Shown: piece after piece, positions 4,224 through 22,214 of the stretch
Layout of the letters: the number at the start of each line of letters is the position of its first letter
Position numbering within the stretch: the stretch's first letter is position 1
Origin: a virus
Virus record (IMG/VR): IMGVR_UViG_3300020470_003526
Span: 1 to 22,869 of that record
Length of the DNA stretch: 22,869 nucleotides
Reading direction: 5' to 3' (one strand)
Position numbers and translations under genes: made by a program
The notes under the pieces: generated by a model
Seen by the model: only the letters and a program-made list of their open reading frames with translations
What the model was told of the DNA's origin: nothing
Database searches by the model: none

Positions 4224-4225
4224 TA

Positions 4226-5244: not shown

Positions 5245-5257
5245 TGGAGAATAAATA

Positions 5258-7537
5258 ATGCCGACATATGGAAAACAAGAATTTAAAGAATCAAATGTAA
5301 ATTATTTGAATAAAGATTTTACTGCGTTAAAACAATCTTTAGTAGATTACGCTAAAGCGTATTTTCCAAATACATATAAAGATTTTAATGAAACATCACC
5401 TGGTATGATGTTATTGGAAATGTCAGCGTATGTTGGTGATGTAACATCTTTTTATATCGACCAACAATATCGTGAAATGATGTTACCTCTCGCTGAAGAG
5501 AGAAGAAATATAATCAATATGGCTAAGATGTTGGGATACAATGTAAAACCAATTGTCCCATCGTTTGTTGAATTGTCATTTAAATCAGATGTCAATGCGT
5601 CATCAGCTAATAGGGCTAATGTTGATTACACTAATGGTAGTACTTTTTCTTCGGGAATAAAAGTTCAATCGACAGCCAATAGTGATTTGTTTTTTGAAAC
5701 TCTTGATGTTGTTGATTTTAGAACAACTGGTTCTTTCAATGAACCGAGTGATACAAGTGTTCCAATTATAGATGCAGAAACTGATGGTTTAATAACTCAT
5801 TATACATTGACGAGAAAAGTTAGAGCCATAAGTGCTGAAACTAAAACAAAAACTTTTACAATAACATCACCACAAAAGTTTAGAAGAATAAATTTACCAG
5901 AAACAAATGTTATTGATATTATATCTTGTAAAGATTCAAACAATAATGAGTGGTATGAAGTTGATTTTTTAGCTCAAGATAAAGTACCTGTAAAAAAACA
6001 TTATACTGCAGACGAGTTAAGAGATCACGCTTATACCAATATAGATGGGGAAGAATACACATCTGATGTTCCAGTTCCATATTCTTTAGAATACATTACA
6101 ACATCAAAAAGATTTACTCGTGAAACGAATAATGATAACACAACATCACTTGTTTTTGGTAATGGTATATTAAAAAATGGTTCAATACTTGATGAAAGTT
6201 TTATAGATTTAGAACAATTAGGAATAATAATTCCAGGACAAACAAATGATTTAGATACAGCTATCGACCCATTATTAGGTGATGAGTATTCAACATTGGG
6301 TGAAACTCCTGTTCAAACAACTTTAACTATAACTTATAGAGTGGGTGGTGGTATATCTTCGAATGCTGCCGTTGGAGATTTAACTCAAGTAATAGGTAGT
6401 CCAACAAAACTAATAGATGGTGGTGCTAATTTAAATCCTGGTGCTGTTACAAATGAAACACCTGCACGGGGTGGTGCTGATAAAGAAGATACTGATGAAA
6501 TAAGAGAAAAAGCAAGAGCATTTTTTACAACACAAAACAGATGTGTAACAAAAGAAGATTATGAAGCTAGAACTTTAAATATGCAATCACGATTTGGTAG
6601 TATAGCTAAAGTTATTGTAACGAGAAGTAAAGAAGGTGACGCACCCCAACAAGACGCACTTGACGCGTTCTCTGAAGCAGTAACAAATCTTCAAATTGCA
6701 GAAAGTATATTAGAACAGGCAATAGAGACTTATCAAACTCAAAAAAATAATTTTGATGCTTTGTGGCCACAAACAGAGGCACAAAAAGATACTTACATTA
6801 GTGCACTTGAAAATAATTATGAGATTCTTCTTGATGGAGTTGTACTTAGCAAACTTCAAGAAGCTGAATCTACAATTAGTCTTTATGAGGATAATTTAGG
6901 TGTATTTAATTTATCATCTATATCTGTTAATATTCTATCATACGACAAAAATAAAAATTTAGTTGGCAATGGACAAGCTGGTAGTGGTGGTTTATTACCA
7001 GATGCCACTGATGGAACACCTACAATTTTAAATACAAATTTATCAAATTATTTAAGTAATTTTAAATTACTAACAGATGAAGTTGCAATTAAAGATGGAT
7101 ACATTATAAACTTCGGTGTGATATTTGATGTGGTAGCTCATCAATATGCTAATAAAGAACAAGTTAAATTAAGATGTATTCAAAGAATTATAGATTATTT
7201 TAAAATAGAAAAAATGCAGTTTAATCAACCAATTGTAGTAAGTCAATTAGAATATGATTTAATGGGTATTGATGGAGTTAGAGCTGTGAATTATGTAACT
7301 TTAACTCAGACAACCAATCCTAATGGGGGAGATGATTTTTCAGCTGAACCATTGTTCTTGTATTCTTGGGACGGTGCTACTGGTCAGATATTAGAAAATG
7401 GAACTACAGGTTATGGTTATGCATATAATTTCGAAGACGCTTTAAATAATGGATTTATATTACCACCAAACCCACAAACTCCAGCTGTATTTGAACTAAA
7501 AAATCCACGAACAAATGTAAAGGGGGTAGTTAGATAA
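5258..7537 (+). CDS. 6: baseplate wedge protein, gp6/J-like
   Basis: Baseplate wedge protein of the T4 gp6 / gpJ family, 759 residues, somewhat longer than T4 gp6. Gp6 forms the inner baseplate ring that controls sheath contraction. Diagnostic segments are DFNETSPGMMLLEMSAYVGD (residues 42-61), TYRVGGGISSNA (359-370), and ARGGADKEDTDEIREKARAF then TTQNRCVTKEDYEARTLNM (403-442), the conserved Baseplate_J core. Residues about 463-550 are a long charged, heptad-like helical insertion, after which beta sequence resumes (SSISVNILSYD, then IINFGVIFDV). GGAG at 5246-5249 serves the start at 5258. The stop overlaps the next start (TAATG). The assignment is strong. Confidence 0.92.
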   Translation: MPTYGKQEFKESNVNYLNKDFTALKQSLVDYAKAYFPNTYKDFNETSPGMMLLEMSAYVGDVTSFYIDQQYREMMLPLAEERRNIINMAKMLGYNVKPIVPSFVELSFKSDVNASSANRANVDYTNGSTFSSGIKVQSTANSDLFFETLDVVDFRTTGSFNEPSDTSVPIIDAETDGLITHYTLTRKVRAISAETKTKTFTITSPQKFRRINLPETNVIDIISCKDSNNNEWYEVDFLAQDKVPVKKHYTADELRDHAYTNIDGEEYTSDVPVPYSLEYITTSKRFTRETNNDNTTSLVFGNGILKNGSILDESFIDLEQLGIIIPGQTNDLDTAIDPLLGDEYSTLGETPVQTTLTITYRVGGGISSNAAVGDLTQVIGSPTKLIDGGANLNPGAVTNETPARGGADKEDTDEIREKARAFFTTQNRCVTKEDYEARTLNMQSRFGSIAKVIVTRSKEGDAPQQDALDAFSEAVTNLQIAESILEQAIETYQTQKNNFDALWPQTEAQKDTYISALENNYEILLDGVVLSKLQEAESTISLYEDNLGVFNLSSISVNILSYDKNKNLVGNGQAGSGGLLPDATDGTPTILNTNLSNYLSNFKLLTDEVAIKDGYIINFGVIFDVVAHQYANKEQVKLRCIQRIIDYFKIEKMQFNQPIVVSQLEYDLMGIDGVRAVNYVTLTQTTNPNGGDDFSAEPLFLYSWDGATGQILENGTTGYGYAYNFEDALNNGFILPPNPQTPAVFELKNPRTNVKGVVR

Positions 7538-8688
7538 TGCATCATTTTATTTTTCCAACACAAGACACTTGGATTTCAAGTGGTTCATCAACCATAACAG
7601 GCGAATCTTTTAAAGACCAAAACTTTGGAAGAGACCAAATACTTGAAGTCAAAAAAGAATTTTTTAACAATTCATTTAACTTTCAAACAAGAGCTTTAGT
7701 TCAGTTTGGTGGAGCAGAATTTACAGAAATGTCACAATCAATTGTTAAAAAAGATATACATAATCCAAGATTCTTTTTAAGACTTTATGAGACGGAAGGT
7801 AATTCAGAAATAACTGGAGACTACACTTTAGCTATACAGCCGATATCACAATCTTGGGTTGAGGGTACTGGTAAGTTTGGTGACAATCCTAAAACTACAA
7901 ATGGATGTAGTTGGGAAAACCGCTCAAATCCAGTTGGTGGAACAGCTGTTCAATGGCAAAGTGGTTCAAGTGGAACTCCTAAACCTGAAATACCACCCTA
8001 TCTAAATTCAGTTGGGACATTAGTTATAAGTTCCTCTACACAAACTTTTACTAATCAATCAGCTGATGTTGAGGCGGATGTTACTGATATGGTGAATATG
8101 TGGATGACTGGTTCTGGTGCTGAAGAAAACTATGGAATGATGATTCGTTTTAGTGGTAGTCAAGAAACGGATTCTACCACATTTGGACATTTAAAATTCT
8201 TTTCAAGACACACTCATACTATTTTTTCACCAAAATTAGAAATTCGTTGGGATGACCATTTACCTTGTACTGGTTCAAACACTGGTTCATTGAATGAATT
8301 AACAATGAGTGGATTGGCTGATAACTTTTTATTTATGAAAGGAATGAGAGAAAGTTACAAAGTAGGTGAGAGAGTAAAGTTTAGAGTTGGTGCACGAAAA
8401 AGATATATTCAAAAAACTTTCAATACATCAGTTCAAACCGTAACTGGTTCATACATACCTGAAGCTAGTGGTTCTTATGCGATTAAAGATGTTGCGACTG
8501 ATGAGTTCATTGTTCCATTCAGTGGATTCACTTCAATGAGTTGTGATGAGAATGGAAATTACTTTAATCAATTTTTAGATGGATTTTATCCTGATAGAGT
8601 TTATAAAATACAATTAAAATTAAAAACTGATGATGGCCAAGAACAAATATTTGATGATGACTTTGAATTTATAGTTAAGAGGAGTTAA
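7537..8688 (+). CDS. DNRLRE-type beta-sandwich virion protein
   Basis: A 383-residue structural protein whose first 245 residues follow the DNRLRE / CBM96-like pattern: PTQDTWISSG at the start, RALVQFGGAEF (52-62), a strand pair with QPISQSWVEGTGKFGDNP (101-118), NGCSWENR (122-129), ADVTDMVNMWMTG (180-192), NYGMMIRF (198-205) and SPKLEIRWDD (231-240). Such domains are beta-sandwiches, often carbohydrate-binding. Residues about 246-383 form a second beta-rich domain with no recognised family. Position directly after gp6 is where T4-like phages place outer wedge proteins, so it probably forms part of the baseplate rim or a fibre attachment site. Carbohydrate binding is possible but no binding residues can be identified by reading. 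Confidence 0.72.
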   Translation: MHHFIFPTQDTWISSGSSTITGESFKDQNFGRDQILEVKKEFFNNSFNFQTRALVQFGGAEFTEMSQSIVKKDIHNPRFFLRLYETEGNSEITGDYTLAIQPISQSWVEGTGKFGDNPKTTNGCSWENRSNPVGGTAVQWQSGSSGTPKPEIPPYLNSVGTLVISSSTQTFTNQSADVEADVTDMVNMWMTGSGAEENYGMMIRFSGSQETDSTTFGHLKFFSRHTHTIFSPKLEIRWDDHLPCTGSNTGSLNELTMSGLADNFLFMKGMRESYKVGERVKFRVGARKRYIQKTFNTSVQTVTGSYIPEASGSYAIKDVATDEFIVPFSGFTSMSCDENGNYFNQFLDGFYPDRVYKIQLKLKTDDGQEQIFDDDFEFIVKRS

Positions 8689-8690
8689 GT

Positions 8691-10277
8691 ATGGCACTTA
8701 CAGTAGAACAAGTTTTAGATAAGTTAGCTGATAAGTTAATTTCCAATGAAAAGATAAATACTTCGGTTGTCCAACAAAATCAAAAAACAATCAGAGGTGG
8801 TTTAATTGAACTTGGAAGAACTAATCAAGAAAAACTAATTTTATTTCAAACAGACGAACAAGCTAATAAAGAAGACTTCCCAAATCCAGAAAGTTTTCAA
8901 TCACTTGTTAGCCAATTATCTACAGATGATATTGGTCAAGTTGATTTTTTAATTTCATTTAGTGATGATGACCCACCTGTATTACAAGAAATAATAATGC
9001 ACGATTTAGCATCTGACGAAGAATATCCTGTTACTGAAATATTTTATAATTCTGATACTGGTAATCCAGTTAATTTAAGTCAATTTATGAGTTTGCAAAA
9101 ATTAACACAAGACATTGAAATTGGATTAGCAGAAGAGTATTTAGACACAACGATATTTGAATTATTACCAAGTATAACTTTTCGTCAACAAAGAATTATT
9201 AATTTTTTCAACGAATGGAATAATCTAAAAGGTGCTGTACCTGATTTCGAACTTGATGAGGAAGGATTTGTTGGTGAAGATTTTAGTGCGGAAGATTATT
9301 ATGAAAGTCACGACATATCAGCAGCACAAGAAACACCTGATGTGGGTATTCAAGAGGAGGACGCATTCATTACAAGATTACAATCGTGGGCTAATGAAGG
9401 TAATACTCAATATACACTCGAAGGTTTAAGAAATGAATTAAATTCTTATTTAGTAGATATAGATGAAGAACTTCCACCTCCTGGAGATGAAAGACCTGAA
9501 TATAGAAATCAATCAAGTGGATACTTAAAATTTAGAGATTTAAATCAAGGTATCATTGTAAGAAATACAGATAATAAATTTATACAAGGTTTAAATCCAG
9601 ATAATCCAACTTGGCAACAAGATGGATTTACCATTACAATGTGGGTTAGATTTTTAGATAAATCATCACAAGGAACATTGTTTAATTTTGGTAACCCATT
9701 AAATACTGATGGGTATGGATTTGCTTTAGAAACATATATAATACAAAAAGATGATACTCCAACAAAAACAGGATTCGGTTCAGTTCCCCAAAATACTTGG
9801 GGTGAAATATTTATGGATGGGAATCAACTTGGTTTATCTTATGACAACTCTCCACCATCTGAAGGATTTTTTAGTCAAGATACTGCTGAACGCTTTGTTA
9901 GGTTAGTTGTAAGAGATGAAAGTAAATTAAGAGGTTCTCACAGTGGAATGCCTTTTCTTAATAGAAGAGATGGTTTACCAGAGTTGGGAAAATGGGATAA
10001 TGAAAATGAATTTGACCACGAATTTGGATTAATGACAAACACAAGAATACCTATAAATTATTCTGAATGGTATTTCATTTGTGCGACATTTAATCCAAAC
10101 ATATTAGAAGAGGAATCTTTTTCATATACTGGATTCAAAAACGATTTTGATTTTTGGAATGGTAATAAATTCACTGATGGTGTATATACTCATTACTCTG
10201 GATATGGAGCTAAATGTAAAGTGGAAATTATTTCAAAAACAGATTTGTTGAGAGCTCGAGGATTTAAGGTAAATTAA
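8691..10277 (+). CDS. LamG/concanavalin-like virion protein
   Basis: A 528-residue protein. Residues 1-180 are mostly helical with an adaptor-like character (VEQVLDKLADKLISNEKINT; VSQLSTDDIGQVDFLISFSD). An acidic linker covers about 185-270. From about 275 to 525 it shows a concanavalin A/LamG-like jelly-roll pattern: SSGYLKFRD, then FTITMWVRFLDKSSQGTLFN, then EWYFICATFN and the ending CKVEIISKTDLLRARGFKVN. Such folds commonly bind glycans or peptides. A strong AAGAGGAG at 8677-8684 sets the start. The operon position and fold suggest a baseplate-attached recognition protein. The LamG-like call is by pattern and would need profile confirmation. Confidence 0.7.
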   Translation: MALTVEQVLDKLADKLISNEKINTSVVQQNQKTIRGGLIELGRTNQEKLILFQTDEQANKEDFPNPESFQSLVSQLSTDDIGQVDFLISFSDDDPPVLQEIIMHDLASDEEYPVTEIFYNSDTGNPVNLSQFMSLQKLTQDIEIGLAEEYLDTTIFELLPSITFRQQRIINFFNEWNNLKGAVPDFELDEEGFVGEDFSAEDYYESHDISAAQETPDVGIQEEDAFITRLQSWANEGNTQYTLEGLRNELNSYLVDIDEELPPPGDERPEYRNQSSGYLKFRDLNQGIIVRNTDNKFIQGLNPDNPTWQQDGFTITMWVRFLDKSSQGTLFNFGNPLNTDGYGFALETYIIQKDDTPTKTGFGSVPQNTWGEIFMDGNQLGLSYDNSPPSEGFFSQDTAERFVRLVVRDESKLRGSHSGMPFLNRRDGLPELGKWDNENEFDHEFGLMTNTRIPINYSEWYFICATFNPNILEEESFSYTGFKNDFDFWNGNKFTDGVYTHYSGYGAKCKVEIISKTDLLRARGFKVN

Positions 10278-10278
10278 A

Positions 10279-13200
10279 ATGGCCTCTGAAAAAAAATATA
10301 CTGATATCATTGATGATACGACTTATCCACCATATGATGATACACCATCACTCGGTAGTGACTTGGGTGGAGAACAAGATTTATTTGATTTAACCAATCA
10401 ACCATATCCAGTTATTATAGGTGGTGATACGGGACAACCATTATTTTCTATCGAAATTGGTAGCACATACACTTATCAAGGTGGTTCTGAAAAAAACATA
10501 TTGATAACAGAAAAAGCACCTGAGTCTTTAAGATACTCAAAAGAATACGCTACAACTACTAATGATCACCAATATAAAATTACTTTTGATATCATTCCAG
10601 ACAACATTAGTAATGAAGCATCCTTTGAACTTCAAGGTGGTATTGATGATATCCCATTTACTTTCTACACCATAGGTAATATGGAAGGAGTATCAGACAC
10701 ATTTCCTCAAATAAATCAATCTAAAAGTTTTGAAATTACATTCGATGCTGCTTTAGATAATCAATTTTTAATTCAATTTAAAAAAACAAATTGGACTGGT
10801 TATATAAAAAACTTTAAAGTTTTTGATTTAGGAGTTAAAGATGATTCGAGTGATGAAGTCAGAGACGAGGGAGGGTCTCCACAGAATCCATATGTTAGAG
10901 CTTGTCTATGTGGAGATTCAAGTAAGGGTCATAATACTGTTGGTAATTTTAAAACAGATTTTATTAATTGGGCTAAACAAAACAATTATGCGGAAAGTGA
11001 TAGTCCAGGTAATCAATTTGGTTTTATGGATTCGATTTTTGGTGATTTAGATTCTCAGACATTAGGTATTAGTGAAACTGAACTACCTGATGGTGTATAT
11101 CCATCAAATTGTGTTGGTGAATATCAGTTAGCACAAATGATAATAGATAGATATCCAAGAAATGAAGCTTATGATGAGGGAGGCCACCCATTTGGAGATC
11201 CAATATTATATGAAGTTGATACTGGACATGCATACGGTTTTGATAATGCAAGTCAATTTAATATTTACCACGACCCGAGATTATGTATTATGGGTGGGCA
11301 GGAATTAGATCCTGAAAAGAAAAATATAATTGGTTTAACTTGGAAAGATTTTAAAGATGAGAATTTATTTGATATTAATTTAACAGAAACTTCTGGTAGT
11401 GGTAATGTGTTATCAGTTAGAGATAACATTATATTGTTTAATAAAGATGCTAAAGATATTACTTTTGGTAGTAATAGGTACGAATCAACTTCATATCCTA
11501 GATTACCAAGTTCTGTTTTTGATACCAGTATTGGGATATATGGTTATACTAGTATGTTAGAGTATAATTTTAATGTTGAACAAAAAACAAATGATTATTT
11601 AGAAACTCTGTTTTGGGGTCCTGAGGATTATTTAGGAACTGGATATGAGCACACACGCGACATAATTTATAAGACTTTTGCTGATTCATGGAGTACAGAC
11701 ATAGCGTTTAACGATTCGACATTCCCGTGTAGTCAAGATGAAATTGACAGTGGAGATTGTGATAGCGTTATGGGGCGTTACGGTGTTAAATGGCATTCAG
11801 ATTATATCACCAGTGAAAAAATTTATCCCATATATGATCAGAATGCGGGCGACGAATCACCACCACCAATTATGGTTAGTGGTATTAAAAGGGGTGGCGA
11901 TGACAACAATCAACTTCAATATTCAGAACTTGAGAACATAGATGATTTATATAATGGTAAGGCTAAAGAATTAGTTTGGCCCGGTAGATGTCCTCCACAA
12001 TATCAAGGAGAAGAAGGAAGAGATGGTAGGTTTGGAACAAATACATTAAGTGGTTTTGGACCAATTATGTGTGCAAGAAATCATTTTGAATCACATTATT
12101 CTAAATGGCTTTATGGTGAATATGATGGTGTAGATGGAACTAATCCTGAAACTCCAAAAATCAAACCATATGTACCAAATGGAGATATTGTAACACTAGA
12201 GGTAAATCCAGATCAAGAAGATGTACCATACCCAGTAGTTGCAAATTTTCCTGACAATGACACTTTTAATTTTATTAAACAACAATTTGAAATAACGGTG
12301 GGGGATGTATATAGAAAATATTTAATAATAGATGTACCTTTAGGTGAACAAGATAGATTTGAAAATATTTATTTTGAATCAATTGATGGTGTTAGAACTA
12401 CTTTTCCTCTTGGTGTGGGAGAAAATTATCTATATATTGATATAACGGATATTGTCCCCACTACACCCGATGATGGATATGATACTTATAATGGGAATAC
12501 TTTCAATGAACAATATGGACACCTTTTAGTTACTCCAGCTCCAGCTGACATGGAAGTTGAAGCAAAATTAAAATATGAAATAAAACATTATTTTATGCCT
12601 AATTCAACCGTTGAAAAAGAACTCAGACGACAAAAGTTTTTAACTTTAATGACTGATTATTTTACTGGTGGAGATTTACAGTTCTATGAAGATTTTAGTG
12701 CCGCTAAATCTCTTATCTATTTAGATGGGTTCGAAGGAACAAAACTTTATCAATACGGTAATAATTATGAATATGCTGGTGGTGGCTCCGTTTACAATGA
12801 TGACGCAAGAAATAAATGGAGTTGGTGGAACAGTCATGCATACTATTTATGGACACATATGGGTGTTCATGCTCTTGATCAAGCTGGTGGTCCTAGTGCT
12901 CAGGATCATAATGCTGATGAACGAGATGGAATTTGTCCTGATGGTTATCCAATGCCTTGTAAATTTCAGTCAGTATTTTCAAATTGGAATTTTGGCGCGG
13001 GTCAAGATAACATACAGTTTCAATCGACACAAAGACTTTTACCATTCAATTATTGGGCTTGGGAATTTGATGAACAAATGTATCTAAATGGAGCCGCTCG
13101 TTATAATGCGCAGGATAATGACCAAAGACATCCAATGATGCATCACTGGGGAAATTATTTTAAAGCTAGTCCATATCAACAATATGAAGATTACTATTGG

Positions 13201-16200
13201 CGTTTAAACAATTTACAACTTAATGGTGGTGGTCCAATGGGTGAAGTTTATGAACAACCAACTTATGGTGATGGTGATGCTAACTTTAATGAAGCTGACT
13301 ATACACGATATATGATTGACTATGGGAATTACTCATATGACCCATACATTCCTTTCGACACTACTTGGAAAATTGAGTATTTTAGTCTAACACCTTGGCC
13401 AGAACAATCTATAATTAATGCTTATATGGATGCAACACGATTACCCCAACCTGCAAATTTTGATGAGTCTGAAGGTTATTTAAATGACTTTGATGGTGAC
13501 CACATGCATGGTTGGGCTTATAATGGTGAGGGTTCAGATTTATTAAATACATTTGATGGTGGGGTTGGTAAAGCGACAATAAATTTCTTCATTACAGGAA
13601 CACTTCAATTTGGAGGAGGATTTGGAGTAGGAGATTTTGATGTAGATTTAAATCCACAATTAGATTCTTCATTTGATTCATTTAGTGGAATAGATTTAAG
13701 ACCTGAAATCGTTGATGAAAACATATGTTCATATATTGAACTTATGACTTTTCAAAACATTGCTGGTTCAGGAGACGGATTGTGGTATCCAGCATCGGAA
13801 CATCCAAGTGCAGATGTTACTGAAAAAGCAATCACTTGTGAAACAATACTTAATTTTAATCTTTATCCATTTAGTAAAGTAAGAGCTAGGTGTAGTGACG
13901 GTTCAACGGTTTTAATTGGTGATACTGGTAATGGTGACACGATTAATTATCCCGATGAGATAGCCACAGGTCAGATAAACAGAGCTAATGATTATTTTCA
14001 TCTATCGGGCATTGATGCTTGCAAATATGCGTCAAATCATATAAGAAGTTATCCGAACAATAAACAATATCATTTTGGTGCTAATTTAGATAAAAGGCCG
14101 TCATTGGGTTTATTCTATTATGAGGAAGATAATTTAGCTTCTGAAGAATTTACTTTTGATATAGGTGAAGAATTTGAACAATATCCACTTACCAATTTCG
14201 TAACAAATGGTAATGGACAATTAATTAAAACATATGATGATGTTTTAGACCACATAAGGCCCCAATCTTATTGGTATATTGGGTCTCTTCGACCTTGTAA
14301 AATGAAATATTCAGCCAACATAATATCACATGATCACGACAATGATGGTGATACTGATGAAGAACATTGGAATGGTTGGACTACTGTTGGTGACGATTGT
14401 CCTAATAATGAAGATTGTTTTAATCCTGGTCAAGGCACTTGTGCTCCTCCGGGAAATCATAATTATAGTAATGGTAGTATTCATTGGAGTCCTTACGAAT
14501 GTGGTGTATGTGTAAAAACCACTCAAGATGGAGCAAGTTATACTGACATGTGGATGCAATATAATGATACTATTCACAATGATTCTTATTGGTATCCAAA
14601 TTATCCTTCAAGACAAGCTAGATATAGTCATAAACCACATCAACAAGCAAACATAAGAGAGGATTCATATACTCCTGATGGGGGTTGGGGCTTAGCTCGT
14701 ATTAAAGGTTATTATGATGGAGTTGATGATGATAATGATGATTATTTTATTCAATCAGGTAATTATGACAGTTCGATTGGTTGGTATAGATATATGGGAC
14801 ATTATAGTTCTATGGGTAATAATATATATTTACCTAACTATAATGGGTTGGATGATATGGCTGGTGGTACATTTTTTCCATTCCAACACCAAAGATCAAA
14901 TGGTACTCCAAGTGGTAAAGGTGGTATGGAGAAATTTCAAGGACAATATGCAACAGGAGTTTATTGGGGTAATCTTGTAAGTTTAGGAGTATTACCTGCG
15001 TGGGTTCGAGAAAGAGCAGAATATAGTTACATTTTTGATCAAGGTGGTAGCCAATGGCAATTTGGGCCAACAAAAAGAAGTGAAGATACTGGTGGTGGTA
15101 CACCATTAGATGCTGGAGTACATCCACAGTGTCACTCGGGTGGAGGTTGTTTAAATTTTCATGCCAATAGAAAGTTTTATGATTGGTTCAATGAAACATA
15201 CGCAAATATGCCAACACAATATTATCAATGGGAATCTTCAGACGGAAATTTTTATGGTGCAGATATTATAACATTAAAAGATAAAGATGGTAATGAATTT
15301 GATGATTCTTGGAAAGAAGCTTTAAAAGTAGTACAGGGATGGGAAGCAGCTGGAAGTGGAATAAAAATAGAACCTTATATGTTTTTAACTCAACAACAAC
15401 AACTACTGGACAAAGATGAAGCAACTGATATATTTTATCACGATATACAATCTACACCTGATTTAAAAGTTAGTTTTTGGATGCTAACCGATAGTCATGG
15501 AGTGGAAGATTTAGATAATCCTGATTTTCCAGAAATAGAAATAGGAATCAGCAAAGTTGACCACGATTTAAGAGAAAACACTTATCATAATTGGCCAAAA
15601 GCTGAATTAAATTCAATACATACGGGTGAGAAGCAAAATGTATACACAGGTGCTTCAGCTAGATTTAAAAATACAGTATTAGATGAATGGGAAAAATTTG
15701 AATTTAGTTTTAATTTAGATTATGACACTTATTATATTCCAAGTGAAAGAAAATTCCACCCACTTTTTTTATACACTAGTTGGGGAGCTCCCAAAGTTAA
15801 TGGTGATAATTCATATGAAAATATGTATGGAAATGTCTATCTTGATGATTTCTCTGTAAAAGAAACTGGTGAATTTATTCCTGATGTTGATGTTAGGGCG
15901 AAAAAGGGTGAAGGTGAATATGGTATTGGTTCATTAACAGAATATTACGACCCATTGATTGAAGGACAATTACAACATTACAATGATACAACTGCTCCAT
16001 TGGAAGCACAATTTTATTTTTATCCAAGATTTCATCACGAACAACTTTTTGATAGAGAGAGTTCATTAGTTAATAGATTTGATAATCCAGAAGCAACATT
16101 TGGATATGAATTAATCGCAAATGATTATAGAAGAGGTCGTTTTTATCTATATGATATTGATTGGGGTGATGGTTCTAAACCAGAATATACAACTGAACCA

Positions 16201-19200
16201 TTAAGACTTGGAAATGATGTTGCGGTTTATCATACATATACAAAATCAGGTATTTATGAAGTAACAGGTTATATGTTAAGAACAAGGCCAAGTAAAAATG
16301 ATGACGGAACACCTAATCATGATTTACCACTTGGTGTAATACATAATAAAAAATTTACGGTTAGAATTAATATCAATGAAGGATTGGATGAAGATTTTAC
16401 ATACTTTGGTTCAGAAGATGGGTTCTCATATATTCCTTATAAAAACTTATCACCTGTTATTGGTGGAATATCTTCAGAAAGTTCTTACTATAAAAATATA
16501 AAAAGACAAGTTGGGTTTATTGGTAATACATGTAAAAAAGTTGAATTTATGTTAGATGAAGGTAGTGGAGGAAATGGGTTTTGGTATAATGCTGAACAAT
16601 TTTATTTAGCTGGTTATTTAACTCAATTTGGAATTTTTGAAACTATTGATAGTGGGGATGATTTATCCATTGTTGATTGTGACTTTGATTTTTCTTCACA
16701 AATTGGTACAGGCTATCCTATAAAAAATGTATCTCAAATAAAGGCCATTTGTGAAGATGGAACTACTGTTTTAATAGGAGATTCGGATGGAATAAGTATG
16801 AGTATAAATGATTATTTCTACTTATCAGGTAATGAAGCTTGTGGTTCTACAAAAACATCAGTGTATTTTGAAAAAGAAAGTGATAAATTAAAAACAGAAT
16901 TAGCTTTAGATAAAATGGATTCATTTTATGAAGACAAGTTTGAAATATTACCAGCATTTAAAGAAGCAAGATATAGTGAACCTGATGGCGGTGGTGAATT
17001 AATATATGGTGGAATAGCGACAAATGGAGAGCGATTAGGAAAAACTTTAGGTAGTATGGATTTAACCGATATAAGATATTTTAATCAACCAAAATCAATA
17101 TATCAAATGTTCGGATTCACTTGTGATAATAACCAAACAGAAGTGGATTTAATACCATTAGGAAATCCAGAGTATGGTGTAAATTATATGAAACACTCTT
17201 ATGGACAAGTTAATAATGATGAAATTATGTCACCATTCGGAAGTTCTGTAACTAAAATTTTTAATAAAAACTATACTGATCCAAATCCAATTAGATTTGG
17301 GCATATGTTTAGAGTTGAAAATTATTTAGGTGCTGATCCTCCTCATTTCTCTGGTCAATGGGCGTATGTTTATCCTCAATTCGAAAATGTAGGAACAACT
17401 ATTAATACACCAGATTTAGGATACGACCAAGTTTATACATATTCCACTCATATTTATATTCCTTATGGCCATTGTGAAGATGGTCGTCCGTGTTCCGAAG
17501 GAGTTAGTGATTATACGGTTCAATGTTCTGATGGGGGATGTAATGGAACTGTACAATACAACAACGGAGATGATTTAGTACTAAGACATATTCAAACTGC
17601 TTATGTGGAAAACACTAGTGCTTTTAATGATTTTGAGAATGCAGTCCCAAATGATTGGGCGACTAGTGTTTGGAACAACAACGAAACTGGAACAGAGTGG
17701 CATGACAGTCATGGTAAGACCTTTAATTATTGGCAATATGACCAATATGCACATTGTCACCCATTAGGTAGTGCAAATAAGTTATTTACATTCGCACTAA
17801 CTAATGGAAGAAATGAAGATGGTAGTGGTTTATGGGGTCAAGTGCAAATGGATAACCAGTATTGTTTTGGTCATCCATATGCTACTTGTAATACTACAGA
17901 GGGATGTTATTGGAGTGGAGACGACGCATATAATGGTAATTGCGTCAGAGCTTTAGGTGGTGGTGCATCAACATGTTGGGAGGCCATCAATGAAGATATG
18001 TGTTCAGGTAATTGTTATTGGTATACAGGTGCTTCAGAAAATTCATATGTTTTACAATTACAAAGTATACCAAATGATCAAATTATATATGATGAATGGG
18101 TAAGAATTGACACAGCTTTCACACCACAATCTCCTATTGAAAATGGTAATTTACTTACACTTAAATTTACTACACCATTTGGTAAAAGTGTATTAACTGA
18201 TTATCAAACTCTCGGTGATGATATAATTGAATTTGGTAATTTTGATAGTCCTTCTTCTGACTATTATATTAGTCAAGACTTTTTATCAACTTTACCATAT
18301 CCGAATTGTTATGAAAAATTTGACATTAATGAAGATGGTACAGTTAATGTTCAAGATGTAGGGCCGTGGGCTACTATCTTCAACAGACCAGATATTTCTA
18401 CTGGTGAACCACCAACGGGTACTCCAACTACAATGGAAATAGTTACTTTACCTGGTGGTACGACTTATACTGAAGAAGTCGAATTCGCTGGTGGATATTG
18501 TGATAATCAAGTTAATGGAATTATAGGTATTAGAAATACTGATAATGCTTGTGCATTAAAGAATAGACTTAATCATCCACATGACAGTTGTTTTGATTTT
18601 ACACCCACTCAACAAGCTATGAACGATGATGTAGAATACACACCTGAAGCTTGTTGTGAATTAGCCGGCGTTGATTATGATTATGTTAGAAAGTGTTTAA
18701 ATCCACAATTTGAAGGTTCATACACTACATATGAATGTACGAAGTATAGTACAAGTGATGATACCACACAAACATTGGATTATAATGGAGATATAGATGT
18801 GTATAGGAATCCAGAAGATGATACTGGAGAAGCAGCTGATGAATATTTCGCTGACTATTGGATTTTTGAAAATGGAGCGTATGCTGAAGATGGTTATGTA
18901 TTTTTCCCCTTTGGTTTGGATGGTAATTATCCTACACTAACTCAAGTACATGGGTTTGATGGAGCACCGTATCAAACAGAATGGATACTTAAAATAGACA
19001 TTCAAAATATTTTTGGTGGCGGTATTGTATCTGGTGAGGTCTTGCTAGTGTTACTTGGTGGTGATAATAGTTATATTAATGATGATATAGTTCTTTTAGG
19101 TGACCAAGAAACAGGAGATATAGAAACAGGCATACTTGAATTTAGATTTACATCTGATAATGTAAATACTCCTGATGGGGGTAGAGAAAGCGATTATTAC

Positions 19201-19902
19201 AGAGAACTTACAATTGAACTTAGGGGTACTAATGAGGGTAATGAAGGTTCAATATCTATAGATTGGATATCATTGAGAGAAGTCATAGATGAAGGAACAG
19301 AGAATACTGTAACTTATAATGATGGTTTATATACATTTGGAGCACAACTATTGGTTGGAGATTTAAGTGGTGATGATTTAATAAATTATACAACTGAAGA
19401 TTTAAATCCAGGTGATTGTGCTGACTTTCAAAGTGGGAATCCAAGTAATCCAAGATATTGGAAAAATATAATTCCTCAAAATTTTGATATCACTAATAGA
19501 AATACATTAGGAACAGAACAAGAATGGCTTGAAACAAATAATGATTTACCTGAAAATCCTAATTATTATTATCCTGTATTACCTAAATATGACAAATATG
19601 GTAAATTTGGTTCTGCAGATGGTAATTTTTCTCCTGGTGGTGATTATGATTATCCTTTTGATAATATACCATTTCCAGTTGATTCTAATGTAACAACTGA
19701 ACAATTCCAAGACCAGTCAATGATAATAAGTATTTATAACGACCAATTACAAACAAATGTTTTTGGAGATGGATCTGGAAATGATAATAACGGATTTGTT
19801 TTAAATGATTATAAACCAAAATTTGATAAAAAAACAAATGAACCAAAAAATATAAAAAATGTTGATAGAATCAGAACATCTAAAAAGGATGGAGCATATT
19901 AA
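10279..19902 (+). CDS. giant 3207-residue modular fibre/adhesin protein
   Basis: A single uninterrupted reading frame encoding 3207 residues, about 42% of the window, and probably an extended tail-fibre or adhesin-like virion protein. Visible modules in order: a beta-sandwich, CBM-like N-terminal region (about 60-185); an uncharacterised Trp/Tyr/Asn-rich stretch (815-1050); a four-cysteine domain (1150-1248); a Ca-loop (1352-1360) in a cysteine-rich segment; a CBM-like sandwich ending YLDDFSVKE (about 1670-1863); a PKD-like domain (1955-2040, with IDWGDGS); a PVIGGI motif (2059); a second four-cysteine domain (2085-2188); an LGK...DL..IRYFN motif (2253-2269); a cysteine-rich CYW segment (2529-2579); dockerin-like loops (2682-2693, 3028-3041); a CBM-like sandwich (2855-3002); and a C-terminal 60-residue tail shared with the next gene. 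By my count it has about 48 cysteines. Function is inferred from modules and operon position; no enzyme motif was found. Confidence 0.85.
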   Translation: MASEKKYTDIIDDTTYPPYDDTPSLGSDLGGEQDLFDLTNQPYPVIIGGDTGQPLFSIEIGSTYTYQGGSEKNILITEKAPESLRYSKEYATTTNDHQYKITFDIIPDNISNEASFELQGGIDDIPFTFYTIGNMEGVSDTFPQINQSKSFEITFDAALDNQFLIQFKKTNWTGYIKNFKVFDLGVKDDSSDEVRDEGGSPQNPYVRACLCGDSSKGHNTVGNFKTDFINWAKQNNYAESDSPGNQFGFMDSIFGDLDSQTLGISETELPDGVYPSNCVGEYQLAQMIIDRYPRNEAYDEGGHPFGDPILYEVDTGHAYGFDNASQFNIYHDPRLCIMGGQELDPEKKNIIGLTWKDFKDENLFDINLTETSGSGNVLSVRDNIILFNKDAKDITFGSNRYESTSYPRLPSSVFDTSIGIYGYTSMLEYNFNVEQKTNDYLETLFWGPEDYLGTGYEHTRDIIYKTFADSWSTDIAFNDSTFPCSQDEIDSGDCDSVMGRYGVKWHSDYITSEKIYPIYDQNAGDESPPPIMVSGIKRGGDDNNQLQYSELENIDDLYNGKAKELVWPGRCPPQYQGEEGRDGRFGTNTLSGFGPIMCARNHFESHYSKWLYGEYDGVDGTNPETPKIKPYVPNGDIVTLEVNPDQEDVPYPVVANFPDNDTFNFIKQQFEITVGDVYRKYLIIDVPLGEQDRFENIYFESIDGVRTTFPLGVGENYLYIDITDIVPTTPDDGYDTYNGNTFNEQYGHLLVTPAPADMEVEAKLKYEIKHYFMPNSTVEKELRRQKFLTLMTDYFTGGDLQFYEDFSAAKSLIYLDGFEGTKLYQYGNNYEYAGGGSVYNDDARNKWSWWNSHAYYLWTHMGVHALDQAGGPSAQDHNADERDGICPDGYPMPCKFQSVFSNWNFGAGQDNIQFQSTQRLLPFNYWAWEFDEQMYLNGAARYNAQDNDQRHPMMHHWGNYFKASPYQQYEDYYWRLNNLQLNGGGPMGEVYEQPTYGDGDANFNEADYTRYMIDYGNYSYDPYIPFDTTWKIEYFSLTPWPEQSIINAYMDATRLPQPANFDESEGYLNDFDGDHMHGWAYNGEGSDLLNTFDGGVGKATINFFITGTLQFGGGFGVGDFDVDLNPQLDSSFDSFSGIDLRPEIVDENICSYIELMTFQNIAGSGDGLWYPASEHPSADVTEKAITCETILNFNLYPFSKVRARCSDGSTVLIGDTGNGDTINYPDEIATGQINRANDYFHLSGIDACKYASNHIRSYPNNKQYHFGANLDKRPSLGLFYYEEDNLASEEFTFDIGEEFEQYPLTNFVTNGNGQLIKTYDDVLDHIRPQSYWYIGSLRPCKMKYSANIISHDHDNDGDTDEEHWNGWTTVGDDCPNNEDCFNPGQGTCAPPGNHNYSNGSIHWSPYECGVCVKTTQDGASYTDMWMQYNDTIHNDSYWYPNYPSRQARYSHKPHQQANIREDSYTPDGGWGLARIKGYYDGVDDDNDDYFIQSGNYDSSIGWYRYMGHYSSMGNNIYLPNYNGLDDMAGGTFFPFQHQRSNGTPSGKGGMEKFQGQYATGVYWGNLVSLGVLPAWVRERAEYSYIFDQGGSQWQFGPTKRSEDTGGGTPLDAGVHPQCHSGGGCLNFHANRKFYDWFNETYANMPTQYYQWESSDGNFYGADIITLKDKDGNEFDDSWKEALKVVQGWEAAGSGIKIEPYMFLTQQQQLLDKDEATDIFYHDIQSTPDLKVSFWMLTDSHGVEDLDNPDFPEIEIGISKVDHDLRENTYHNWPKAELNSIHTGEKQNVYTGASARFKNTVLDEWEKFEFSFNLDYDTYYIPSERKFHPLFLYTSWGAPKVNGDNSYENMYGNVYLDDFSVKETGEFIPDVDVRAKKGEGEYGIGSLTEYYDPLIEGQLQHYNDTTAPLEAQFYFYPRFHHEQLFDRESSLVNRFDNPEATFGYELIANDYRRGRFYLYDIDWGDGSKPEYTTEPLRLGNDVAVYHTYTKSGIYEVTGYMLRTRPSKNDDGTPNHDLPLGVIHNKKFTVRININEGLDEDFTYFGSEDGFSYIPYKNLSPVIGGISSESSYYKNIKRQVGFIGNTCKKVEFMLDEGSGGNGFWYNAEQFYLAGYLTQFGIFETIDSGDDLSIVDCDFDFSSQIGTGYPIKNVSQIKAICEDGTTVLIGDSDGISMSINDYFYLSGNEACGSTKTSVYFEKESDKLKTELALDKMDSFYEDKFEILPAFKEARYSEPDGGGELIYGGIATNGERLGKTLGSMDLTDIRYFNQPKSIYQMFGFTCDNNQTEVDLIPLGNPEYGVNYMKHSYGQVNNDEIMSPFGSSVTKIFNKNYTDPNPIRFGHMFRVENYLGADPPHFSGQWAYVYPQFENVGTTINTPDLGYDQVYTYSTHIYIPYGHCEDGRPCSEGVSDYTVQCSDGGCNGTVQYNNGDDLVLRHIQTAYVENTSAFNDFENAVPNDWATSVWNNNETGTEWHDSHGKTFNYWQYDQYAHCHPLGSANKLFTFALTNGRNEDGSGLWGQVQMDNQYCFGHPYATCNTTEGCYWSGDDAYNGNCVRALGGGASTCWEAINEDMCSGNCYWYTGASENSYVLQLQSIPNDQIIYDEWVRIDTAFTPQSPIENGNLLTLKFTTPFGKSVLTDYQTLGDDIIEFGNFDSPSSDYYISQDFLSTLPYPNCYEKFDINEDGTVNVQDVGPWATIFNRPDISTGEPPTGTPTTMEIVTLPGGTTYTEEVEFAGGYCDNQVNGIIGIRNTDNACALKNRLNHPHDSCFDFTPTQQAMNDDVEYTPEACCELAGVDYDYVRKCLNPQFEGSYTTYECTKYSTSDDTTQTLDYNGDIDVYRNPEDDTGEAADEYFADYWIFENGAYAEDGYVFFPFGLDGNYPTLTQVHGFDGAPYQTEWILKIDIQNIFGGGIVSGEVLLVLLGGDNSYINDDIVLLGDQETGDIETGILEFRFTSDNVNTPDGGRESDYYRELTIELRGTNEGNEGSISIDWISLREVIDEGTENTVTYNDGLYTFGAQLLVGDLSGDDLINYTTEDLNPGDCADFQSGNPSNPRYWKNIIPQNFDITNRNTLGTEQEWLETNNDLPENPNYYYPVLPKYDKYGKFGSADGNFSPGGDYDYPFDNIPFPVDSNVTTEQFQDQSMIISIYNDQLQTNVFGDGSGNDNNGFVLNDYKPKFDKKTNEPKNIKNVDRIRTSKKDGAY
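12721..13404 (+). other. Trp/Tyr/Asn-rich segment of giant protein
   Basis: Residues about 815-1042 of the giant protein are unusually dense in aromatic, Asn, Asp and Gly residues, for example NKWSWWNSHAYYLWTHMGVH and YYWRLNNLQLNGGGP. One C-x3-GYPMPC pair (ICPDGYPMPC) occurs. No family is recognised. Surface aromatics of this density are common in glycan-binding surfaces, which would fit a host-recognition role, by inference. Confidence 0.45.
13726..14022 (+). repeat. four-cysteine domain, copy A
   Basis: Residues 1150-1248 of the giant protein. Copy A shares with copy B a spaced pattern: an initial Cys, E-x-M, SG-x-G-x-WY, a second Cys, a YP/YPF..V segment, then ARCSDGSTVLIGD, NDYFHLSG and a final Cys (GIDAC). 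All four cysteines are present in both copies, suggesting two conserved disulphides or a metal site. The copies are divergent at DNA level, so the duplication is old. Confidence 0.75.
14332..14358 (+). other. Ca-binding DxDxDGDxD loop
   Basis: Residues 1352-1360 read DHDNDGDTD, the alternating-Asp pattern of thrombospondin type 3 and EF-hand-like calcium loops. It lies just before a cysteine-rich segment (CPNNEDCFNPGQGTC, then YECGVCVK). Calcium-stabilised linkers are common in extracellular and fibre proteins. The motif is clear; ion binding is inferred. Confidence 0.55.
15286..15867 (+). other. CBM-like beta-sandwich in giant protein
   Basis: Residues about 1670-1863. LKVSFWMLTD, EWEKFEFSFNLD and NVYLDDFSVKETG occur in the order typical of CBM4/9-like carbohydrate-binding sandwiches, where the last strand ends in a YLDDFSV-type sequence. 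No specific sugar can be predicted. Confidence 0.55.
16141..16398 (+). other. PKD-like domain in giant protein
   Basis: Residues about 1955-2040. The PKD hallmark is present: YDIDWGDGSKPEY followed by AVYHTYTKSGIYEVTGYMLR. PKD domains are Ig-like spacers found in surface proteins. The equivalent region in the next gene (about 21264-21551) keeps the layout but has WNDVDN in place of WGDG. Confidence 0.72.
16453..17085 (+). repeat. PVIGG-LGK module, interrupted copy
   Basis: Residues 2059-2269 of the giant protein. The module begins PVIGGISSESSYY and ends LGKTLGSMDLTDIRYFN. The 770-residue protein has the same two ends (PVIGGVDENSKY and LGKSIKKVDLEQVRFFN) only 44 residues apart, against 194 here. 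The extra length includes the second four-cysteine domain. Confidence 0.75.
16531..16842 (+). repeat. four-cysteine domain, copy B
   Basis: Residues 2085-2188 of the giant protein. It matches copy A at the initial Cys, E-x-M, SGGNGFWY, a second Cys, YP..NVSQI, then AICEDGTTVLIGD, NDYFYLSG and a final Cys (GNEAC). It sits inside the PVIGG-LGK module, as an apparent domain insertion. Confidence 0.75.
17863..18015 (+). other. cysteine-rich CYW segment in giant protein
   Basis: Residues 2529-2579 hold seven cysteines (C2529, C2537, C2543, C2555, C2566, C2575, C2579). Two half-repeats end in GCYWSG and NCYWYTG. The C...GC-W...C spacing is reminiscent of PSI (plexin-type) repeats, but the match is loose and the family is unassigned. 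Confidence 0.5.
18322..18357 (+). other. dockerin-like EF-hand loop 1
   Basis: Residues 2682-2693, DINEDGTVNVQD: Asp, Asn and Asp at loop positions 1, 3 and 5, Asn at 9 and Asp at 12. This matches the calcium loop of dockerin type I repeats. It is preceded by CYEKF, a typical flanking phenylalanine position. Confidence 0.68.
18841..19284 (+). other. CBM-like beta-sandwich near C-terminus of giant protein
   Basis: Residues about 2855-3002. Strand pattern TEWILKIDI, then GILEFRFTSD, YRELTIELRG and a final SISIDWISLREV resembles a carbohydrate-binding sandwich lying between the two dockerin-like loops. The fold is suggested by pattern only. Confidence 0.5.
19360..19401 (+). other. dockerin-like EF-hand loop 2
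   Basis: Residues 3028-3041, DLSGDDLINYTTED: Asp, Ser and Asp at loop positions 1, 3 and 5, and Asn at 9. The acidic residue expected at 12 is a threonine, followed by Glu, so this loop is degenerate. It lies about 335 residues after loop 1, much further than in a normal dockerin. Confidence 0.5.
19720..19899 (+). repeat. shared C-terminal tail, copy 1
   Basis: The last 60 residues (3148-3207) of the giant protein. An ungapped alignment with the last 60 residues of the next protein gives 16 identities by my count, clustered at GN-x-N-x-GF...DYK-x-K and at the terminal GA-x. Both tails are lysine-rich after DYK. Confidence 0.75.
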
Positions 19903-22214
19903 TGAAAAAACAATTATTAAAAGACTTCCCATCAACAGATGCTAGAGGACAATATTTTTATTATGATGATGATGCTCCACCCCAACTATTGGAAAGTGAT
20001 GGTTTACCTCCTGGCTTAGATAAATTTAATAATTCACAATTATATTCATTAGTTCAAGAAGATGAATTAAATAAACAAATACTTAAATATGGTATAGCTT
20101 TTCCAGTTAGTTCATTGGTAAAATTTAATTCTTTACAGATTGAAAACAATGGTGTTAGGCATGATATAAAAAATGTTACCGTTAATGCTTGGATGTTTGA
20201 CAACATAACTTGGGAAGACTCTGGTATATCATCTAAACTTCCTGAAGAAATGAACTATGGTGAAATAGATGCAGCTCTACTAAAAAGAACAAGTGGTTGT
20301 GATGGTACATTTGGAAAATATATGACAGACCAATTAAGAAGCCAAGATCCTGATGCTACACCAATAACTGCGAGATTTTTTGGAAGAGGTTATAGTAGAA
20401 GAAGAAAAGGTAGGGGTATTGGTGAGGTTCTAAAAGAAAATGAAATTTTTAAAGATTTAGATAGTAACCCAACTTATACACTTGATGTAAATGGAGCACT
20501 AGCGAATTACAATGCTCAATATGCATTTACACATCCAGGAGATACTACTCCTGAAGGTGAAAATATGATTTTCAGTTATGTAGATCAATCTATATACATT
20601 GTTGTCAGAACAAAAGGTAACGCAAAAAGGTGGTGGGGAACAGATAGAAGAAGAAGAAGATTTAGTATTTATAAAATTGATTCAAGTGTTTTATTTACTG
20701 GTGGTGGTAGTGGAAAAATCACCACATTAACTTTTGATAAACCTCTGAAAATTATAGAGGGTGGAGGTGGCCGAGGTGGTGCAGAAAAGGTAGCATTAAA
20801 AGTTGAAAAGCTTGAAATGTATTTCGATACAAGAACTGGAACACCTCAAACCTATCCTGAAGGTGAGGGTATAGATTATTCAATTGGTAATGGTTCGGAT
20901 GTTATTGAAGATTATTCAAAAAAAGAAGTAGATCAGATTAAGCCTTCTGTCGCAGAAGGTCTTCGTTTTAATAGAAGAAATTTATTTGAAGAATTTAAAT
21001 ATCAAAATCCAACTAGACAAATAGATTGGCATTTGTATACTAATGATGAAGATAATGATGCATTCAGTGGAGATCTTCAAAGAAATTTTGAACCTGTCAG
21101 TAGAGTTAAAGTACTTGGTTATGATGAATATGATTTACAAGCTTATCAAAAAGATGATAATGCTAGAAAAATTTGTTCTGCCCCAAATACAGTAGAATTG
21201 GGTTTTAGTATAGCCCCATATATTGAAATTTCGGGTGATTTACTATTCGATGATGGTTCAGAACAATCGTGGGAGGGTTATACATTTTATGTTGTAAGTT
21301 GGAATGATGTTGATAATAATTTTGAAAAACCAGAAGATTATTTAAATGATATACCACAAACAAATAGTGATATGATAAAAAAACAAGAAGAAAATTTATA
21401 TAGATTTACATCGACACCAGATACCATAACTCATAATTATTTTACACCTGGAATTAAAGTGATAAAAGCTGTTTTATTTTCTCACTATACTCAGTATCAA
21501 AACTCACAAATTGCAAGATGGAAATTCATTGAAACAAGAATATTTTTAGATATTCCATTAAATCAATATCCTGATTTTGGAGAATTGGGTGGTGGTGATT
21601 TTGTTACAATTCCTTGGCCTTATCTAGCTCCTGTAATTGGTGGAGTGGATGAAAATTCAAAATATAAAATAAGTATCAGAAATACTTTATCAAGCGGAAA
21701 AATATCAGAACAAGATGTTATTGATTTTAAATTTTTAACAGATGCTAAAAATAATGATGAATTGGGTAAATCAATTAAAAAAGTAGATTTAGAACAAGTC
21801 AGATTTTTTAATACTGGTAAGGATAAAAATGGAGAAACATACGACATACACAAACTTTTAGGTATTCAAGATTCAATAACAACAGATGGAACAGATTTTT
21901 ATCCATATACGGATAATTCGTATTGGGATTGTAGAGATTGGGATATTAATAGAAATTATTGTTTTTCGGGGGAAACTTCAGTCGGACAGATATTTATAGA
22001 TGACAATTTGGATTTAGATTTAAAAGAAAGTTGTAAATTAGAATTAAATCTTGGAAATCTTGACGGAAAATCTATAAATGATACAAATGGTAATTCAAAC
22101 AAAGGATTTTTAATTGGTGATTATAAAATTAAAAAAAGACAAAAGAATATTCCTATGAAAAGAGATTCTTTTATGAAACTTCCTAAAACAGGAAATAAAA
22201 ACGGAGCTTTGTAA
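19902..22214 (+). CDS. fibre-type protein, paralogous to giant protein C-terminal part
   Basis: A 770-residue protein starting at a TAATG overlap with the giant gene. Residues 1-110 include an acidic start (YDDDAPPQLLESDGLPPGLD) and a beta-rich NVTVNAWMFDNITW segment like a DNRLRE-type fragment. Residues 160-175 and 240-255 are strikingly arginine-rich (GYSRRRKGRG; RWWGTDRRRRRF). A glycine-rich turn (EGGGGRGGAE) follows at about 286-295. Residues about 455-550 are PKD-like, followed by PVIGGV (577-582) and LGK...DL..VRFFN (621-637), then three cysteines (677, 687, 711) and the 60-residue shared tail. The match to the giant protein in module order makes it a paralogue. It is probably another tail-fibre or baseplate-peripheral protein; no enzymatic motif was found. 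Confidence 0.78.
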   Translation: MKKQLLKDFPSTDARGQYFYYDDDAPPQLLESDGLPPGLDKFNNSQLYSLVQEDELNKQILKYGIAFPVSSLVKFNSLQIENNGVRHDIKNVTVNAWMFDNITWEDSGISSKLPEEMNYGEIDAALLKRTSGCDGTFGKYMTDQLRSQDPDATPITARFFGRGYSRRRKGRGIGEVLKENEIFKDLDSNPTYTLDVNGALANYNAQYAFTHPGDTTPEGENMIFSYVDQSIYIVVRTKGNAKRWWGTDRRRRRFSIYKIDSSVLFTGGGSGKITTLTFDKPLKIIEGGGGRGGAEKVALKVEKLEMYFDTRTGTPQTYPEGEGIDYSIGNGSDVIEDYSKKEVDQIKPSVAEGLRFNRRNLFEEFKYQNPTRQIDWHLYTNDEDNDAFSGDLQRNFEPVSRVKVLGYDEYDLQAYQKDDNARKICSAPNTVELGFSIAPYIEISGDLLFDDGSEQSWEGYTFYVVSWNDVDNNFEKPEDYLNDIPQTNSDMIKKQEENLYRFTSTPDTITHNYFTPGIKVIKAVLFSHYTQYQNSQIARWKFIETRIFLDIPLNQYPDFGELGGGDFVTIPWPYLAPVIGGVDENSKYKISIRNTLSSGKISEQDVIDFKFLTDAKNNDELGKSIKKVDLEQVRFFNTGKDKNGETYDIHKLLGIQDSITTDGTDFYPYTDNSYWDCRDWDINRNYCFSGETSVGQIFIDDNLDLDLKESCKLELNLGNLDGKSINDTNGNSNKGFLIGDYKIKKRQKNIPMKRDSFMKLPKTGNKNGAL
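21630..21812 (+). repeat. PVIGG-LGK module, uninterrupted copy
   Basis: Residues 577-637 of the 770-residue protein: PVIGGVDENSKY, a short helical linker, then LGKSIKKVDLEQVRFFN. This is the compact form of the module that is interrupted at 16453-17085. Confidence 0.75.
22032..22211 (+). repeat. shared C-terminal tail, copy 2
   Basis: Residues 711-770 of the 770-residue protein, beginning at Cys711. It carries GNSNKGFLIGDYKIK, a basic stretch, and the terminal GAL. It is the counterpart of the giant protein's tail, of equal length. Confidence 0.75.

Follow-up and report, generated by a model that had tools for sequence, protein, structure and literature searches.

A giant modular scaffold protein encoded in the T4-like baseplate gene cluster of uncultured marine phages

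The giant gene of the window (the whole stretch of DNA analysed here, which is an entire IMG/VR virus record, a linear fragment of 22,869 bases) encodes a protein of 3,207 residues, a member of a widespread and definable family of proteins encoded in T4-type baseplate loci. The conserved backbone of these proteins, which consists of a PKD-like core and about 250 C-terminal residues, is fixed in position between a LamG-like protein and a tandem paralogue, and variable modules are inserted at the N-terminus and at a small number of fixed ports. The giant protein is probably a peripheral baseplate scaffold-adhesin whose exchangeable modules would bind glycans and so serve host attachment. The initial annotation as a mosaic protein with modules of the surface-adhesin type in a T4-like baseplate cluster is borne out by both the homologues and the neighbouring genes.

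The frame starts with ATG and contains no internal stops over its 3,207 codons, as originally read; the computed mass of the product is 363 kDa and its pI is 4.3. The baseplate genes form a same-strand run with junctions that are gaps or overlaps of a few nucleotides: the ATG of the giant gene is 1 nt past the LamG-like gene, and its stop overlaps the start of orf770 (Table 1). The cluster contains gp25-like and gp6-like wedge genes near the giant gene, as is typical of T4-type baseplate loci, and the gp6-like protein shares 32% identity with the gp6 of Flavobacterium phage immuto, which is annotated as a baseplate wedge protein. The upstream order of gp6, DNRLRE (the family presently named CBM96 in Pfam) and LamG, recognized from the outset, agrees with the Pfam and PHROG matches and with synteny; for the LamG family, synteny extends to 57 distinct sequences.

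Table 1. Genes of the baseplate locus and segments of the giant protein (residue numbers refer to the 3,207-aa protein unless stated otherwise)
Feature	Position	Strand	Basis
gp25-like baseplate wedge protein	4762..5244	+	PHROG baseplate wedge match, 1.6e-21
gp6-like baseplate wedge protein	5258..7537	+	weak Pfam Baseplate_J match, 0.0031; annotated relatives
CBM96 (DNRLRE) protein	7537..8688	+	Pfam 3.7e-8; kept in immuto and Mel-JY01
LamG-like protein, constant upstream partner of the giant	8691..10277	+	Pfam 0.011, below cut-off
Giant modular baseplate-locus scaffold protein, 3,207 aa	10279..19902	+	full-length homologue L086, partial homologues L003 and L010
N-terminal extension, residues 1-1110	10279..13608	+	alignment and viral scan
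First conserved scaffold piece, residues ~1112-1149, GFGVGDFDVDLNPQLDSSFDSFSGIDLRPEIVDEN	13612..13725	+	by eye against the consensus FGVxGxxIEQTL..FDPxSGxDI; suggested by alignment
Cys module copy A, residues 1150-1250 (..DGSTVLIGD..DYFHLSGIDAC..), inside the N-terminal part of the scaffold	13726..14028	+	1.2e-19 at residues 1165-1250
Scaffold segment, residues ~1251-1356	14029..14346	+	minimal-protein HMM positions 21-144
Insertion, residues 1357-1613 (257 aa)	14347..15117	+	minimal-protein profile and insert comparison
Scaffold segment, residues 1614-1845, ending ..GNVYLDDFSVKE	15118..15813	+	profile; putative fold
Most conserved scaffold core, residues 1846-2091, with PKD-like domain	15814..16551	+	alignment, Pfam segments, profile
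Cys module copy B, residues 2098-2190, port ~917	16570..16848	+	2.1e-22; alignment
Scaffold segment, residues 2190-2287 (..ERLGKTLGSMDLTDIRYFN..)	16846..17139	+	homologous to orf770 615-657
Insertion of 761 aa, residues 2288-3048, port ~1008, Cys-rich	17140..19422	+	Ca-loop module inside; L086 has a collinear insertion of 772 aa
Single EF-loop ('dockerin-like') module, residues 2658-2707, DINEDGTVNVQD loop	18250..18399	+	family copies, alignment, loop search
Conserved C-terminal scaffold, residues 3049-3207 (PRYWKNIIP...YYYPVLPKY...DGSGNDNNGF)	19423..19902	+	in nearly all complete homologues
orf770, tandem paralogue	19902..22214	+	PKD-like and C-terminal scaffold shared, residues ~504-770
Third structural gene, 5' end, cut by the contig end	22218..22868	+	first 217 codons; homologues up to 2,056 aa

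Searches with the whole giant protein yielded no matches in Pfam (E<=1), in PHROGs (0.1), in a tblastn comparison with 50,697 phage records, among PDB sequences or in a direct scan of IMG/VR, where the query words are unique to this protein. The family was reached via the conserved neighbour gp6 (80 IMG/VR loci) and then by a scan with the conserved core (60 loci), which together yielded 49 complete distinct core-bearing ORFs, two of them the halves of one split gene. In the respective locus, L093, the giant gene occupies two frames (4104-6581 and 6610-8283; 825 and 557 aa) that are separated by a 28-nt gap, owing either to a sequencing error or to a true split. A pattern search of the bacterial and archaeal genome collection with the conserved core returned no loci, and the profiles of the core family and of the third-gene family have no matches in the PDB; the orf770-family profile matched a single PDB entry, a squid receptor (0.035), which was discounted as a chance match.

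The order gp25-gp6-CBM96(DNRLRE)-LamG-giant-orf770 homologue-third gene (1,265-2,056 aa) recurs among the gp6 loci with sufficient downstream sequence and is kept in 50+ IMG/VR contigs. The independent contig L086 encodes a collinear homologue of 3,011 aa, with 44% identity over residues 1612-3207 of the window protein and 33% over residues 33-1320; in L003 and L010, the contigs end inside the gene and match the window protein from residue 34 to about 2500-2750. Chance resemblance is excluded by these collinear homologues across the whole length of the giant. In three loci (L087, L097 and L064), the protein in the slot after LamG has no detectable core. The one in L087 (5071-12453; 2,460 aa) shows no scaffold, orf770 or module match and is apparently an unrelated giant in the same slot.

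The smallest complete giant homologues consist of 1,058-1,155 aa and the largest of 3,693 aa. The length CV reaches 0.32 in the giant family and 0.28 in that of orf770, compared with 0.04-0.06 for gp25, gp6, CBM96 and LamG. A profile (HMM) of the minimal protein maps onto every family member, and scaffold positions 701-1154 are found on average in 44-46 of the 46 distinct homologues compared, so that the approximately 450 C-terminal scaffold residues, including the PKD-like domain, are present in nearly all of them. On the window protein, the profile covers residues 1233-1356, 1614-1819, 1846-2091, 2190-2287 and 3049-3207. Insertions of 257, 98 and 761 residues separate these segments. Compared with the minimal members, the window protein carries a heavy load, with an N-terminal extension of ~1,110 residues, two Cys modules and the insertions of 257 and 761 residues. 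The extension is shared solely with members of the closest clade, which comprises 6 contigs (L086/L157, L003, L010, L004, L008 and L012). The end of segment 1614-1845 (..GNVYLDDFSVKE) bears a resemblance, and only that, to CBM4/9-like jelly rolls, and the C-terminal scaffold (residues 3049-3207) is a candidate assembly anchor.

The length variation of the giant family is not random. The best four 16-residue bins of the scaffold accommodate 60 of the 81 internal insertions; the maximum in 2,000 simulations was 24 under a uniform null and 38 under a null with C-terminal bias. The main ports are located at about scaffold positions 30, 917, 960, 1008 and 1039, with boundaries that derive from local HMM alignment and are precise to about 10 residues.

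All-against-all comparison of 107 insert segments and the orf770 proteins yields 298 BLAST matches (E<=1e-3) that link one port or gene with another, orf770 proteins included; the modules recur both between ports and between neighbouring genes. One example is the Ca-loop module (consensus LPFPQYFEEFDINxDGxLxxxDxxxWxxxGRPDIA, with one EF-type loop), represented by 79 copies in 68 ORFs, namely 39 in the giant family (including the one in the window), 26 in the orf770 family and 14 in the third-gene family. A search of IMG/VR with this module returned almost only the same contigs; the bacterial matches are ordinary dockerin or EF loops aligned over only about 30 residues of the loop. True dockerins contain two tandem loops. 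Since the module has a single loop, DINEDGTVNVQD, it does not belong to the type I dockerins, and the Pfam match at 0.079 is below the cut-off. The 'dockerin-like' label thus holds for the presence of a Ca-loop but not for the architecture, with one loop instead of two in what recurs as a family-private cassette.

The Cys module (DGSTVLIGD...YFxLSGxxAC) is found in 25 copies in the family, two of these in the window protein, where they are 43% identical to each other. Copy A is missing from the minimal members. Copy B is present in L086 and L010, is missing from L090, L094, L092, L091, L093, L003, L088 and L095, and forms a clean insertion between scaffold residues that directly follow each other in L090, L094 and others. 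The Ca-loop module is found in all three genes, the Cys module in the scaffold, and an intein-like Hint module in the scaffold and the paralogue.

Scans of the whole window protein and of its segments detect no module at the Pfam cut-off; the segment profile searches give only sub-threshold PKD (0.065-0.08) and Dockerin_1 (0.079) matches, and the sub-threshold LAM_C and Exotox-A_bind matches were treated as chance. CBM60 (5.6e-10) and CBM_4_9 (0.0011) are detected by Pfam in family homologues and not in the window protein. The PKD-like domain (DWGDG...HTYxxSGIYEVTG) belongs to the scaffold and its motifs WGDG and HTY..G.Y are kept family-wide; its best Pfam score in relatives is 0.0047, and the Foldseek PKD matches of the minimal homologue L135 have probabilities of 0.80-0.85 with E > 0.001. 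Judging by the relatives, the CBM-like, PKD-like, dockerin-like and cysteine-rich modules of the initial annotation seem to exist, although in forms more divergent than the names would suggest.

The giant and orf770 are tandem paralogues, both length-variable: hhalign aligns the PKD-like and the following conserved region with a probability of 98.5 (E 3e-15), and there are three short collinear matches that include the C-terminus. The third-gene family comprises 'hypothetical' proteins of 1,265-2,056 aa in these marine phages, immuto and Mel-JY01 (window 22218-22868; L086:11485-16587; immuto KNV73_gp109, 1,265 aa; Mel-JY01 WWT39511.1, 1,336 aa). This family has no PHROG match, no Pfam match in the one member scanned and no similarity to T4 gp7, and is probably an unnamed conserved baseplate component.

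The AlphaFold model of the minimal homologue L135 (26 sequences) has a mean pLDDT of 59.6, with partly confident beta domains at about residues 70-125, 210-410 and 456-870. Residues 940-1154 are modelled as unfolded yet are well conserved and carry three main ports; such a conserved unfolded tail could be a segment that becomes ordered upon partner binding. The core model has no Foldseek match at E<=1e-3, the top matches to glycoside hydrolases and S-layer proteins being at chance level. The model of the N-terminal extension (residues 1-1110; pLDDT 31.8) is unusable and was left uninterpreted.

The closest annotated isolates by gp6 are immuto and Mel-JY01 (32-37% identity of gp6), which share with the window gp25, gp6, a CBM96-type protein and the third-gene homologue but differ in that they lack LamG and any detectable giant scaffold or paralogue. 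They encode only a 112-aa and a 413-aa protein between CBM96 and the third gene, so that the variable slot lies between these two genes. T4 gp7 and gp10 are encoded in the same general place, after gp6; nevertheless, comparison of the third-gene family with gp7 and of the core with gp7 and gp10 gives hhalign probabilities of only 0.1-0.35%, and no homology is claimed, with the proviso that single T4 sequences were used and very distant kinship could escape. One direct precedent is the evolved Dit of skunaviruses, in which CBM insertions promote adsorption to exopolysaccharide-bearing hosts (PMC10688798); in lactococcal skunaviruses, host cells are bound by CBMs that decorate neck and tail proteins (PMC6669499). 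In the evolved Dit, carbohydrate-binding domains inserted into a conserved tail-tip protein produce long variants (PMC10688798, PMC6669499), much as putative ones may do in the giant family, and port clustering, scaffold conservation and module shuffling in the latter fit the pattern of a conserved protein with variable insertions at fixed places. However, the evolved Dit belongs to siphophage tails, and its insertions yield longer Dits; the giant family has a scaffold with several ports and members of up to 3,693 aa, and its cassettes are common to three adjacent genes. The giant may therefore work like an evolved Dit without being a member of the Dit family, the likeness being one of architecture. 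Among myophages, the Vp4 baseplate wedge protein Gp119 has CBM folds and binds bacterial cells, and the receptor-binding proteins of Vp4 and Deep-Blue contain PKD domains; the wedge-3 proteins of these phages, likened to the giant by description, consist of 341-831 aa with few modules (PMC11406892).

The scaffold-adhesin reading is favoured by the synteny, the contrast in length variation, the clustering of ports, the matches across ports and the shared modules, together with the CBM60 and CBM_4_9 domains of relatives, the PKD-like fold, the baseplate neighbours, the lack of matches in the pattern search of the bacterial and archaeal collection and the precedent of baseplate and tail proteins with CBMs, for which binding to host cells is documented (PMC11406892, PMC6669499, PMC10688798). 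The sub-threshold modules of the window protein, the core model of moderate confidence that lacks a significant Foldseek match and the slot proteins devoid of the core in L087, L097 and L064 count against it. The conserved C-terminal stretch, predicted to be unfolded alone, would lock into the baseplate wedge, and the inserted CBM-like, Ca-loop and Cys modules would project outwards and bind polysaccharide on the surface of host cells or particles; gain, loss and swap of cassettes would then retune attachment without disturbing assembly.

The main alternative, which we regard as not very likely, is a structural, non-adhesive protein of the wedge or its periphery in which the inserts are tolerated or stabilizing, for example via Ca-dependent or disulphide contacts among the three adjacent proteins, and other fibres bind the host. 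Contacts inside a single assembly would account for a Ca-loop module common to three adjacent genes, the C-terminus is predicted to fold poorly by itself despite its conservation, and the fibre-like protein of immuto is a separate one; the strong variation in length, the turnover of modules and the carbohydrate-binding families are better suited to recognition. An extension of the scaffold-adhesin reading, which we deem unlikely in its full form, is that contractile-tail phages display cassettes at multiple ports, with three baseplate-locus proteins sharing private exchangeable modules that recombine between fixed ports and genes and so diversify attachment, and with the Hint module possibly also cleaving or splicing proteins after synthesis.

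The original proposal of a very long receptor-binding fibre, like T4 gp34-37/gp12, is consistent with the length, the adhesin-like modules and the position in the baseplate cluster, but is improbable considering that the minimal homologue is merely 1,058-1,155 aa long and is modelled as separate beta domains with an unfolded tail. Neither Pfam searches with the whole giant protein and its segments nor PHROG searches detect a fibre or chaperone domain; fibre hallmarks such as repeats, a trimeric beta-helix or a chaperone/collar domain were not found in the giant, and relatives possess separate fibre-like genes, including the one in immuto with Collar/Gp10_C matches. Host recognition by an adhesin remains plausible from the surface-adhesin-type modules, whereas the 'fibre' wording is not supported. 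Adhesion to non-host targets such as algal polysaccharide or marine particles, which would concentrate phages near hosts, is even less probable: CBM60 is annotated as xylan-binding and adhesion to non-host targets is known for the Ig-like adhesins of gut phages (PMC13370021), but the baseplate location favours the host surface. The Ig-like adhesins of crAss-like phages and gut myophages resemble the giant in concept, being modular with recurring domains, and come from other phages and another environment (PMC13370021). That the gene is an assembly chimera of unrelated genes, or decayed, is suggested by its odd length alone and is very unlikely, the homologue searches having produced the full-length collinear protein of L086 in another metagenome contig, the partial ones of L003 and L010 and a gene order kept in >50 contigs, in addition to the uninterrupted 9.6-kb frame in the window, so that a chimera seems refuted as far as sequence permits.

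Modular CBM-bearing tail proteins are already known; what is new is the combination of a several-port scaffold, private cassettes across three adjacent genes, a length range of 1,058-3,693 aa and an intein-like Hint cassette in relatives. An orphan 9.6-kb gene becomes a definable protein family with a map of scaffold, ports and cassettes, and it becomes testable whether uncultured marine T4-like phages diversify host attachment by exchanging cassettes at fixed positions instead of mutating fibre tips. The conserved C-terminus and the third gene (the immuto gp109 homologue) provide anchors by which long structural genes of Flavobacterium and cyanobacterial myophages, currently 'hypothetical', may be named.

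Several additional features of the relatives deserve mention. The Hint/intein-like domain of ~163 aa (CFVAGTKV...ILTHN followed by S; PT-HINT to 8.5e-10) occurs in giant proteins (L143:92-254, L155:91-253, L148:68-230 and L150:274-436), in the orf770 family (L194, aa 826) and in L197-L200, in varied places and often at Gly-rich linkers; it has no matches in sequenced phages, and the usual block-B His is apparently Asn (TIANPFW). The domain looks mobile because its copies are 85-94% identical between proteins that are otherwise 48-76% identical and because the giant and the orf770 paralogue both contain it. After the Hint domain, the N-terminal extensions of L155, L148 and L150 contain Cys repeats of the GCTDSQACNYNSNAT type, of a kind known from marine Bacteroidota proteins, which may hint at the host. 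An extra gene between gp6 and CBM96 (834-1,272 aa where complete) is present in L090 (5163-8981), L097 (2632-5136), L122, L130, L146 and L154; the L090 product is repetitive (GSG/SASG-rich) and fibre-like, and that of L097 has a weak beta-solenoid match. Further downstream in the record that includes L088, L089:903-5036 (-) encodes a 1,377-aa protein with a near-complete Dockerin_1 match (3e-4). Finally, positions 24-767 of the window encode a 247-aa protein that is 47% identical to the product of an immuto gene annotated as a phosphohydrolase; in both phages, this gene precedes the baseplate genes.
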